This document shows, one piece after another, positions 1-3,385 of a stretch of 35,572 bases of DNA. The stretch is from Spirochaetia bacterium (GTDB lineage Bacteria; Spirochaetota; Spirochaetia; CADAEX01): positions 1 through 35,572 of the forward strand of contig JAKSTW010000016.1 in assembly GCA_024402405.1 (NCBI GenBank), in the 5' to 3' direction. The notes under the pieces were generated by a model, which saw nothing but the letters and a program-made list of their open reading frames with translations, was not told the DNA's origin and made no database searches. Positions within the stretch are counted from its first letter, which is position 1. Each line of letters begins with the position of its first letter. Made by a program: the position numbers and the translations under genes.

Positions 1-466
1 TCTCCACTTCCACTGTAGGTATAGGGATTATATGTTTCCCGGTGGCCCGTTCCTTCAGGGCTGTCTCTATCTCATCCTTGGTGGCTATATCCTCTATTTT
101 TATGACTTTGCTTGGTTTGGGCAGATCAAGGCGCTTGGCCATTTTCTGAACCATAGCCTCTGAAGTTCCCAGCAGCAGGATCTTGGTGAACTGCTCCTCG
201 TGCAGTCTGTTTCTGACTTCGACCCTGTGTTCCATCGTGTCAAAAAGGGCAGTTTTTATGGCTGTCAGGTAGAGCTTCTCATTCTTGGCAGATTTTCCTG
301 CTATGATATTGTCATTCTTTATCAGCAGACCGTCGTCGATGATCAGCTCGATGCCGTACTTTTCCGCAATGAGACGGGCACGGAAGCTTTTTCCTGTTCC
401 GCTGCGTCCTACAAGTGCGAAGACTTTTATTCCGACTAATTTTCTTAAGAAATATGGAAGCTGCAT
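1..466 (-). CDS. P-loop nucleotide-binding protein, partial (C-terminus off the left edge)
   Basis: The frame is open from ATG 466 to the window edge, about 155 residues, with no stop. A Walker A motif, GRSGTGKS, lies near residue 18-25, so ATP or GTP binding is expected. The following segment has short hydrophobic strands (ELIIDDGLLI, KILLLGTSEAMVQKMAKRL) typical of an alpha/beta P-loop fold. I do not recognise the family, and the missing C-terminus may hold the informative part. An in-frame ATG also exists at 472, but a perfect TATAAT sits at 478-473, exactly six bases before ATG 466, and there is no Shine-Dalgarno sequence. I therefore prefer 466 as a leaderless start. The gene lies 43 bases after the FliD-like gene on the same strand, so read-through from it is also possible. 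Confidence 0.7.
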   Translation of the reverse strand, partial: MQLPYFLRKLVGIKVFALVGRSGTGKSFRARLIAEKYGIELIIDDGLLIKNDNIIAGKSAKNEKLYLTAIKTALFDTMEHRVEVRNRLHEEQFTKILLLGTSEAMVQKMAKRLDLPKPSKVIKIEDIATKDEIETALKERATGKHIIPIPTVEVE

Positions 467-472
467 TGCCAT

Positions 473-478
473 ATTATA
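473..478 (-). promoter_or_regulatory. -10 element of possible leaderless promoter for the P-loop gene
   Basis: The minus strand reads TATAAT, then ATGGCA, then ATG. Transcription starting about seven bases after the -10 box would begin at the A of ATG 466. No convincing -35 hexamer is seen at 16-18 bases (TTGTCT is present, but 22 bases away), so this call rests on the -10 box and its spacing. Confidence 0.4.
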
Positions 479-509
479 CTATGCTTTTGCCTGAAAAGGA
501 AGACAATTT

Positions 510-2249
510 TTATTGTCCGAGCTGCTGGTTTTCCAGTAATTTATTCAATTCTGATTCCAGTGACTGGTATTTTTCTCTCAGTATTTTATTTTGTTTTTCC
601 AGATTGGCTTGAATATTTAACAGACGCACCTTCATACGCTGGATCAGATTTCCCAGATAGCTTCCATCATTTATGTCCTCTGATATTCCAGCCATCTCTT
701 TTATTTCTTCCATGGTATTCTTTAGAGTATCATAAAGTTTATAAGCGATGCCATTCTCAGAACAGAATATCTGATAAGCACATTTGCTGTTATCAGCAAG
801 TGCATCATTGAGTTTTGTTTTGTCCATCTGTATAGATCCGCTGCTGTCTACTGAAGATATGCCTATTGATGCCAGCATATTGTATGGTCTGTCTGCAGAA
901 GTGACCACTGTGAGAATATCGCTGTGCATATTGTTTATCATTTTGAAAATTATTGAGTCTCTGTATAGAAGTCCTGATCTTGCCTTTTCATTCCACTTCT
1001 CGATCTGCTCCGGGGTCATGCTTGCTTCATCTTCTTTTGTCAGGACATGATATTCACTTTGCGGTTCTTCTTTGTATAGATAGTTCAGCTTATCCAGCAT
1101 CATGTTGTAATCTTCAACAAATGATTTTGTATTTTCAATTATCTGATCTTGGTCACATGTGACTGTGATAGTTGATTTCCCGATTTTTGTCAGATTATAC
1201 GTCACGTTAGAAACAGTGATTTTATTGCTGCTGCCTGAATACTGTTTTCCATCTATTATCACAGCGGCATCGACTCCATATTGACCTACCATCATTCCGG
1301 ATGCAAAGTTTTTTTCAGACAGCTCTTTTTTGCCATCAACAAGCTCCACACTGCATAAATTCAGACTGTTAAGCAGTGCTGCGGCATTGTCATCTTTTGC
1401 TCTGAAACCGGCAAAATTATCTTTGCCTGCTGCTGTGTTGACAACTGCAAAAGAATCATTTTGTGCATCATATGATGCATGTATCTTCAGACCAGCCTTG
1501 TTGATATTAGACACCAGATCGTTTAGGGTAAAATTTGAGTTATTTATCTTATCTTCTGTAATAGTAATGGTTTTCGTGTCCGTTCCATCAGAAATTTCAA
1601 AGGACAGATTGCCATTTATATAATTTTTGATGATATTTTTCAGAAAGATGCTGCCTGCTTCTGCATTTTCATTGCGTGATATTTTATTCTTTGTGATCAG
1701 AAATGCATTGGATGCCAAAGTCCTTACTTCTACAGCGTGAGATGTTTCAAGGGCATCAGCATTGGCTTCGGCTGTCACGACACCGGTATTTGAGGATGAT
1801 GTCAGCATCGGTGAGAATGTTGTGGATGATCTATATCTGGCTATGGCGGTATTTGTAAAATTACTGATGTCTGCATACAGATCTGTGTATGCCTTTTTCA
1901 GCCATTGTTTTTTTACGATATCTATGTATTGGCTGTCGTATTCTTGCTGTATTTTGACGGTGCTGGCTGTTAACAGAGCTTCTATATCAGTATTTGTACC
2001 TGTATAATAATTTTCTATTCCATTGGAATTAAGTATCAGATTTCCATTTTCATTTATATCTATATTTTCCAGCAGCTCTGGAATTATTTCATTATCTGTG
2101 ATGGCACCTTTCTGTTCGTTTTCAGGCGTGATGTCAAAACCTGCTGGGCTTGAATTGTCACAGCAGATGACTAGAAAAGCAAGCAGCAGTATTGCTGCAG
2201 AAGGAACAGCTATTTTTTTCATATTGAACTTTTTTTTATTATCTTTCAT
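510..2249 (-). CDS. FliD-like flagellar cap protein with N-terminal export (lipoprotein-like) signal
   Basis: The 579-residue protein has the FliD layout. An N-terminal helical part at about 65-185 (VKKQWLKKAYTDLYADISNF, then SSSNTGVVTAEANADALETS followed by VEVRTLAS) is followed by beta-rich middle domains. A C-terminal part (FVEDYNMMLDKLN, ASMTPEQIEKWNEKARSGLL, then a terminal coiled coil) resembles clostridial-type FliD. Normal FliD starts almost directly with the cap domain and leaves through the flagellar export apparatus. Here residues 10-30 are instead a basic-hydrophobic segment ending in LLLAFLVICC, like a Sec or lipoprotein signal (isoleucine at -1 is non-canonical). ATG 2222 (M10) is an alternative start and would give a typical 19-residue signal. 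Sampled 60-base lines contain 20-22 G+C, against 29-34 in the SDR gene, suggesting a different history. It may be a periplasmic paralogue rather than the flagellar cap. Confidence 0.75.
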   Translation of the reverse strand: MKDNKKKFNMKKIAVPSAAILLLAFLVICCDNSSPAGFDITPENEQKGAITDNEIIPELLENIDINENGNLILNSNGIENYYTGTNTDIEALLTASTVKIQQEYDSQYIDIVKKQWLKKAYTDLYADISNFTNTAIARYRSSTTFSPMLTSSSNTGVVTAEANADALETSHAVEVRTLASNAFLITKNKISRNENAEAGSIFLKNIIKNYINGNLSFEISDGTDTKTITITEDKINNSNFTLNDLVSNINKAGLKIHASYDAQNDSFAVVNTAAGKDNFAGFRAKDDNAAALLNSLNLCSVELVDGKKELSEKNFASGMMVGQYGVDAAVIIDGKQYSGSSNKITVSNVTYNLTKIGKSTITVTCDQDQIIENTKSFVEDYNMMLDKLNYLYKEEPQSEYHVLTKEDEASMTPEQIEKWNEKARSGLLYRDSIIFKMINNMHSDILTVVTSADRPYNMLASIGISSVDSSGSIQMDKTKLNDALADNSKCAYQIFCSENGIAYKLYDTLKNTMEEIKEMAGISEDINDGSYLGNLIQRMKVRLLNIQANLEKQNKILREKYQSLESELNKLLENQQLGQ

Positions 2250-2293: not shown

Positions 2294-2322
2294 AATTTAA
2301 AATTTTTTTTAACTTGTTTCAA
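2294..2322 (-). promoter_or_regulatory. Weak candidate promoter for the FliD-like gene
   Basis: The minus strand reads TTGAAA (2322-2317), a 17-base spacer, then TAAATT (2299-2294), overlapping the stop of the pseudouridine synthase gene. The predicted start is about 38 bases before ATG 2249. The region is very AT-rich, so chance matches are likely. No GC-rich terminator separates the two genes. Confidence 0.3.
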
Positions 2323-3349
2323 TAACACTATATGGTGAATTTTTGCATATATTACTGCTTTGATGTGTTTCTCCTGCAAAAGAAGCGATGGTATTTTCAA
2401 TGGCTGAGATGACTTTGTTTTTTGAGCAGCACATGAGTATTGATATGTCTGTGATGAAATCCTGTCCGGGCATTCCGGTGTAGGCTTTTCCGTCTGCTAT
2501 GATGCAGCATGAGTGCAGGTAGTAACCGCTGTCATTGGGACTGCCGTGATATTTCAGATCGCCTGTGAGCGGGTGTTTGTGATAGCTGGCCTGAGCTCTT
2601 ATCTGATGTGTCCTTCCTGTCTTTATCTCTACCTGGGCCAGTGTCAGTCCATTGGAACACAGAAATGGAGTGGCTATGGTTATGACCTCGTCTCCCTGTG
2701 TGCTCTTCAGCGGCAGGATCTGTGAATAATTGGCATTGTTATCCCTGAGCAGCCGGTCATGCCACATTGCCTGCTGGCTGAGTGTGCCGTCCAGAAGTGC
2801 TATGTAGCATTTTCTTGTCTCACGGTTCTGGAGAGCCATGGAAAAATCTCTGGCCCCCTGGGCTGTCTTGCCGAAAGCGATCATGCCGGATGTGTTCCTG
2901 TCCAGACGATGCAGCGGACCTGGTGCGAAGGCTATGGAGTCCTCCCTTGAGAATCCCAGATAATCTTTCACTATTCTGTCCAAAGTGGTGAAACTGCCTG
3001 ATTTCCCATCCGGATGCACCAGCTCGCCCTTCTTCTTGTTCAGTATCAGAATATTGTCATCTTCATAGATGATCCTTTTCTGGAATGCACCCCGGTTTAT
3101 GGTCGGCACTGTCTTTTTGGGTTCCTGTGTATGGACAAACTCCATCAGCGGTGCTGCCACGTCTACTGTGTCACCTTCTGCGACTCTTGCATCCTGCTTT
3201 GTCCGTCTGCCGTTTATTCTGAGAAAACCGCTGCGGATTTCCCTGTAGATGCGGCTCAGGGGCATTTCGCCCAGCACTATTCTGAATATTCTGTCGCACC
3301 GTTTTCCGTCATCATCTTTTTTTACTGTGGCAACTGTCTTGAATTCCAT
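2309..3349 (-). CDS. RluA/RluC-family 23S rRNA pseudouridine synthase
   Basis: The protein isomerises uridine to pseudouridine in RNA, most probably 23S rRNA by family. From ATG 3349 (346 residues) it begins with an S4-like RNA-binding domain at about 15-65 (LSRIYREIRSGFLRINGRRT). The catalytic domain contains the signature GPLHRLDRNTSG, with catalytic aspartate D150. The KTGRTHQIRAQ motif near residue 245 is also present. A longer reading from ATG 3385 overlaps the upstream permease gene. ATG 3349 is preferred because the S4 domain needs no extra residues and TATCAT lies exactly six bases before it. Neither start has a Shine-Dalgarno sequence. Substrate position (RluC-like or RluD-like) cannot be decided from sequence reading alone. 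Confidence 0.9.
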   Translation of the reverse strand: MEFKTVATVKKDDDGKRCDRIFRIVLGEMPLSRIYREIRSGFLRINGRRTKQDARVAEGDTVDVAAPLMEFVHTQEPKKTVPTINRGAFQKRIIYEDDNILILNKKKGELVHPDGKSGSFTTLDRIVKDYLGFSREDSIAFAPGPLHRLDRNTSGMIAFGKTAQGARDFSMALQNRETRKCYIALLDGTLSQQAMWHDRLLRDNNANYSQILPLKSTQGDEVITIATPFLCSNGLTLAQVEIKTGRTHQIRAQASYHKHPLTGDLKYHGSPNDSGYYLHSCCIIADGKAYTGMPGQDFITDISILMCCSKNKVISAIENTIASFAGETHQSSNICKNSPYSVIETS

Positions 3350-3355
3350 GCGGCA

Positions 3356-3385
3356 ATGATACTTTAAATTATAGATGTCATGCAA
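3356..3385 (-). promoter_or_regulatory. Candidate leaderless promoter for the pseudouridine synthase gene
   Basis: The minus strand reads TTGCAT (3385-3380), an 18-base spacer, TATCAT (3361-3356), six bases TGCCGC, then ATG 3349. The -10 matches consensus at five of six positions, the -35 at three. Transcription would begin at or next to the ATG. The element overlaps the stop codon region of the AEC permease gene. Confidence 0.4.

Follow-up and report, generated by a model that had tools for sequence, protein, structure and literature searches.

A flagellar cap protein (FliD) gene of Selenomonadaceae type was found in a spirochaete genome without detectable filament or hook genes, and the encoded protein carries a Sec/lipoprotein-type leader in front of its FliD part. 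The window, that is, the whole stretch of DNA that was analysed (35,572 nucleotides), is an entire contig of this 1.52 Mb, 96%-complete genome. The leader, donor type, insertion site, lack of filament and hook matches and decayed D0 ends were read from the sequence, and the fold was predicted from it. A flagellar cap has no Sec leader, has conserved D0 ends and belongs to a genome that also encodes flagellin, hook and junction proteins, and the window protein departs from this on every point, so it is probably a FliD variant that serves as a flagellum-independent envelope protein. On balance we favour the reading that a captured Selenomonadaceae-type cap protein now serves a filament-less spirochaete as a binding protein that is anchored in the membrane, probably by a lipid.

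Reading frame and leader

The frame of 579 codons is unbroken by any stop or frameshift, and the gene and its N-terminal additions are located as follows:

510..2249, minus strand: fliD-like gene with a Sec/lipoprotein-type leader, 579 aa, one open frame with an ATG start
2160..2249, minus strand: leader, residues 1-30, with a basic n-region, a hydrophobic h-region and Cys29-Cys30
2022..2159, minus strand: polar linker, residues 31-76, from the double Cys to the ancestral FliD start, of low model confidence

The leader sequence is MKDNKKKFNMKKIAVPSAAILLLAFLVICCDNSS, which closes on Cys29-Cys30 (ICC); its hydrophobic peak covers residues 13-30, and the best 15-residue Kyte-Doolittle mean was 2.7. 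The initial annotation had described a FliD-like protein with a basic-hydrophobic Sec/lipoprotein-type leader closing on a double cysteine, and the open frame, the Kyte-Doolittle profile and the Pfam matches all agreed with this. The extra segment that it had put at about 35 residues does exist but is somewhat larger, as about 46 residues separate the double Cys from the canonical FliD start.

The in-frame start-codon scan found no ATG, GTG or TTG between codons 10 and 148, and in-frame FliD homology begins near codon 76-77, which means that the FliD part would always be translated together with the leader. A start downstream of the hydrophobic segment, which had been considered as a way in which the leader could be spurious, is thus ruled out up to codon 148 unless a rare start codon is used. 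No clear Shine-Dalgarno sequence was seen 5' of codon 1 or codon 10, and a promoter-like site at 2322-2294 scored no better than chance. The G+C content of the gene (37.4%, GC3 0.357) is the lowest among the genes of the window.

The leader has the layout of a lipoprotein signal, and like the spirochaete envelope lipoproteins it has a basic n-region, an h-region, a Cys directly after it and then a polar linker. But the lipobox would be LVIC for Cys29 or VICC for Cys30, so the residue preceding the Cys is Ile or Cys where Gly, Ala or Ser is usual, and the boxes of other candidate lipoproteins in the same genome are canonical (for example LAGC and LTGC). Spirochaete lipoboxes are said to be looser. 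Because Ile or Cys stands in the place of Gly, Ala or Ser, a signal anchor without lipid is possible, and the protein might face the periplasm from an N-terminal signal anchor that stays uncleaved, in a structural or scaffold role with no lipid and no outside ligand. This would fit the non-canonical lipobox, and many spirochaete envelope proteins do face the periplasm, but lipoproteins usually show just this order of a short hydrophobic run, a Cys directly after it and a polar linker, and the other candidates in the genome share that layout, albeit with canonical boxes; we give the unlipidated anchor a small but real chance. No report of a lipoprotein FliD or a leader-bearing FliD was found in the literature searched.

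Origin of the FliD part

A conserved-fragment scan of the genome collection gave one outstanding match, the FliD of Mitsuokella sp. oral taxon 131 (L107), whose gene is located inside a flagellar gene cluster. Matches to the window protein were found in 163 of the 189 Selenomonadaceae genomes, and the best of them (G218, L189) had 44% identity over residues 76-571 (E 3e-107), that is, over the whole FliD chain and in the same domain order. Nearly all of the Selenomonadaceae matches listed start at residue 60 or later, and none of those listed covers the hydrophobic leader. In a quick tree the window protein was placed inside the Selenomonadaceae clade (SH-aLRT 100), on a long branch and apart from the spirochaete FliDs. 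Since Selenomonadaceae stood alone for the Negativicutes in this sampling, a close relative of that family could instead have been the donor.

The spirochaete FliDs (about 650-690 aa, NCBIfam PRK06664 type) have FliD_N and FliD_C in common with the window protein, but they form a separate clade (support 100), their similarity is far weaker (phmmer E 1e-5 to 1e-12), and the leader is absent in those examined. The survey of spirochaetes held 395 genomes of 133 genera, the window's genome included, and no FliD of the window type was found in the 394 others at E 1e-15 or better; the spirochaete type itself has been lost from the window's genus. Judged by tree and scores, the FliD part is foreign and of Selenomonadaceae type, and the same data rejected a native spirochaete FliD with an added signal. 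The domains had been called clostridial-like at first, which is refined by the scores and tree to Selenomonadaceae (Negativicutes). Acquisition had also been suggested from the low G+C, which is consistent with it, and a gain from Bacillota is indeed indicated, but the sampled Selenomonadaceae loci have 46-56% G+C, so low G+C was rejected as a signature of the donor.

In the alignment, residue 73 of the window protein corresponds to the start Met of the Selenomonadaceae proteins, which means that the leader would have been joined almost exactly before the old start codon. Relative to the Selenomonadaceae FliD (HAP2) filament cap, leader and linker add about 72-76 residues. No leader-bearing FliD relative was found among the Selenomonadaceae matches listed, the 394 spirochaete genomes, plasmids, phages or viral contigs, and the source of the leader gave no convincing match in the examined parts of the same genome and no Pfam match.

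Conserved core and decayed D0 ends

Pfam FliD_N matched residues 86-181 (8.6e-10) and FliD_C matched residues 326-571 (1.3e-29), both over the curated cut-off. The AlphaFold model of the single chain was confident over about residues 88-576 and disordered N-terminal to that, and its significant PDB matches were flagellar cap proteins, the best of them all at prob 1.00 and the longest spanning nearly the whole FliD chain. By sequence and predicted fold the window protein is a FliD, in line with the complete FliD-like domains that the initial annotation had recognised. Conservation along the chain was counted in columns conserved in at least 90% of Selenomonadaceae FliDs, and it differed between three parts:

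1902..2021, minus strand: N-terminal D0, residues 77-116, decayed, 9/23 conserved columns kept
615..1901, minus strand: FliD core, residues 117-545 (rest of leg, D1, D2-D3 head), kept, 90/111 columns
513..614, minus strand: C-terminal D0 helix, residues 546-579, decayed, 5/14 conserved columns kept

Both D0 ends together kept 14 of 37 columns, and the difference from the core was significant (Fisher p 1.9e-6). In columns that are also conserved in other Bacillota, 44/54 were kept in the core, 3/10 in the N-terminal D0 and 1/6 in the C-terminal D0, while the FliDs of other Bacillota themselves showed a far milder drop over the same columns, from 0.52 in the core to 0.44 at both D0 ends.

The cap structure of Campylobacter shows the 17 N-terminal residues wrapped round neighbouring subunits; the contact of the C-terminal helix is thought to mimic filament docking, and the D0 N-terminal stretch and C-terminal helix form the pentamer and filament contacts (PMC7316729). 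The decay thus appears to strike the cap-specific parts (pentamer lock and flagellin docking) and to leave the rest intact. The long branch bears neither stop nor frameshift, and together with the kept core and decayed D0 this speaks for selection having continued on a new use, as far as a gene known from one genome only can tell.

Flagellar gene content of the genus

The initial annotation had proposed a search for a second, signal-less fliD, and none was found, so the window protein is the only FliD in the 96%-complete genome; no FliD was found in any of six sibling genomes of the same genus either. Flagellin was not found in the window's genome, where 96% completeness leaves some chance of a missed gene, and the siblings agree. 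With the concatenated flagellar proteins of a motile sister genus (from G008) as query, FlaB, the junction protein FlgK, the hook protein FlgE, the rod protein FlgC, FliE and the stator proteins MotA and MotB had no match in any of the genus's 7 genomes, while all seven were found in the sister-genus genome G007 as a positive control. The window's genome keeps FliF, a short FliG, FliO, FliP, FliR, FlhB, FlhA, FlhF and a FliA-like sigma factor, and gave no matches to FliH, FliI, FliJ and FliM; the siblings additionally keep FliH, FliI, FliJ and a FliM/FliN-like protein, and their FliG and FliI are separate genes.

The genus retains flagellar inner-membrane export genes in remnant loci at G000:C6:3002-10314 (L034) and G000:C2:16950-19400 (L219) and, in the siblings, L065-L070 and L220, while genes for rod, hook, filament and stator were not detected. 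Its flagellum may have been cut down to the export apparatus, and this reduced apparatus, to which the fliD-like gene draws attention, may be the more interesting find. In the described non-spiral spirochaetes the motility genes are almost absent (PMC12236494), and the literature searched contained no report of a spirochaete that lacks filaments but has retained its export genes.

The shortened FliG (221 aa, L219:10365-11030) still matches FliG_N, FliG_M and FliG_C, and is followed by a 107 aa protein (L219:11076-11399) with a weak FliK C-terminal match; similar FliK-like proteins lie within the FliM-FlhA cluster of the siblings. Just upstream of the siblings' FliM/FliO-FlhA cluster are an FtsK gene (L065:6847-9180) and a 103 aa lone FliG_M-like protein (L065:9182-9493).

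Export specificity is set by FlhB. Its loci are L034:6940-7986, L065:14341-15072 and L067:7549-8280, with orthologues in L066 and L068-L070. The entire cytoplasmic C-domain is gone in the sibling FlhB, while in the window genome's FlhB this domain is present with NPTH replaced by TGKD. From these sequences the export specificity switch has probably been lost in the genus, and an FlhB without a working NPTH motif argues against late-substrate type III export.

The kept genes raise the possibility of an accessory to the export apparatus, in which an anchored FliD would plug the FliF-FliPQR-FlhAB gate at its outer face or act there as a chaperone for exported proteins. The gate is kept and intact in 7/7 genomes, and FliD normally acts as a chaperone at an export exit, but the apparatus is fuller in the six siblings, which have no FliD, the window's genome has no FliH, FliI, FliJ or FliM matches, and the fliD-like gene is unlinked to the remnant flagellar genes, so we regard this role as unlikely though worth keeping in view.

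Spirochaete filaments are periplasmic, and the initial annotation had offered a cap that still caps such a filament and arrives by Sec instead of type III. The FliD chain is complete and its D0-D1 helices are confident in the model. However, with no flagellin, hook, rod or stator match in the genome a Sec-exported cap has nothing to cap, no junction protein was detected in the genus, the D0 contacts are decayed, and the FliD is foreign and unlike the family's own type, which leaves this reading very improbable. A membrane-anchored protein unrelated to motility, which had been named as the other option, would be the better reading given the missing filament genes and decayed D0 ends, with the anchoring itself predicted from the leader.

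Insertion site

The genes and edges around the insert are as follows:

2309..3385, minus strand: upstream flank, RluA-type pseudouridine synthase gene, conserved in six siblings
473..512, minus strand: stop codon and 3' stretch resembling the siblings' pseudouridine-synthase gene end/intergenic stretch
1..472, minus strand: downstream flank, P-loop/AAA-type gene, truncated at the contig end and conserved in six siblings

In the 6 siblings the pseudouridine-synthase gene (62-66% identical) directly adjoins the P-loop gene (80-83% identical), and the fliD-like gene occupies exactly the site that is left empty there. This rejected a contig chimera or mis-joined genes, so the artefact joining two genes that had been feared at first is excluded for this locus. 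Nesting in the Selenomonadaceae clade together with the empty sibling sites indicated that the transfer was into the spirochaete. Both edges of the insert resemble the siblings' short stretch between the two flank genes, which suggests that a short duplication was created on insertion; compared directly with each other, the edges were only marginally alike (p 0.046). A passenger gene that was acquired recently and has no function, or else an artefact of assembly, would account for the presence in one genome only and the lowest G+C in the window, but with 579 codons intact on a long branch, a selectively preserved core and native flanks around a site empty in six siblings we hold it to be most implausible.

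Proposed use as an anchored binding protein

For Sec export, anchoring, lipidation, surface location, oligomeric state and binding function we infer the following course. A Selenomonadaceae-type fliD would have entered a spirochaete lineage without hook and filament, landing as a single gene between the pseudouridine-synthase gene and the P-loop gene, and would have gained a Sec/lipoprotein-type leader and linker just before its original start codon. The leader would direct Sec export, and the protein would be retained in the cell envelope by lipid on Cys29 or Cys30, or by an uncleaved hydrophobic helix. The linker may hold the FliD domains off the membrane with the head exposed to the periplasm or the outside. 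As the D0 ends decayed and the core was kept, the FliD head would be the part in use, its most likely role that of an adhesin that binds glycans, mucus or neighbouring cells. Of all the steps this one is the weakest, with the export-gate accessory and the periplasmic scaffold as live rivals. In its full form the proposal is a tentative one: after cross-phylum transfer and signal peptide capture, a cap protein would have been domesticated in a filament-less spirochaete as a lipid-anchored surface adhesin independent of the flagellum.

The use of the head for binding surfaces or cells has also been proposed for the FliD adhesins of P. aeruginosa, C. difficile and Pelotomaculum: FliD was implicated in mucin adhesion of P. 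aeruginosa, recombinant C. difficile FliD bound mouse caecal mucus, and Pelotomaculum FliD bound methanogen cells, and the review collecting these cases notes indirect and conflicting data (PMC4009794). But those adhesins sit on the flagellum tip, which they reach by type III secretion, whereas the window protein would be membrane-anchored, and the parallel is one of proposed function only. An adhesin role has been proposed for FliD in several bacteria, but it is difficult to tell apart from effects of the flagellum on which the protein sits. A leader-bearing FliD with its docking ends lost, in a filament-less cell, is a natural separation-of-function case, and its ligand would reveal the role of the head alone; the same gene illustrates how a type III substrate could turn into a Sec substrate.

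In contrast with the Selenomonadaceae fliD, the window gene has no flagellar gene neighbours and its genome has no flagellin or hook. A 722 kb Aneurinibacillus plasmid (NZ_CP116888.1) likewise has a complete FliD gene (498 aa, L101:1501-2997) surrounded by non-flagellar genes.
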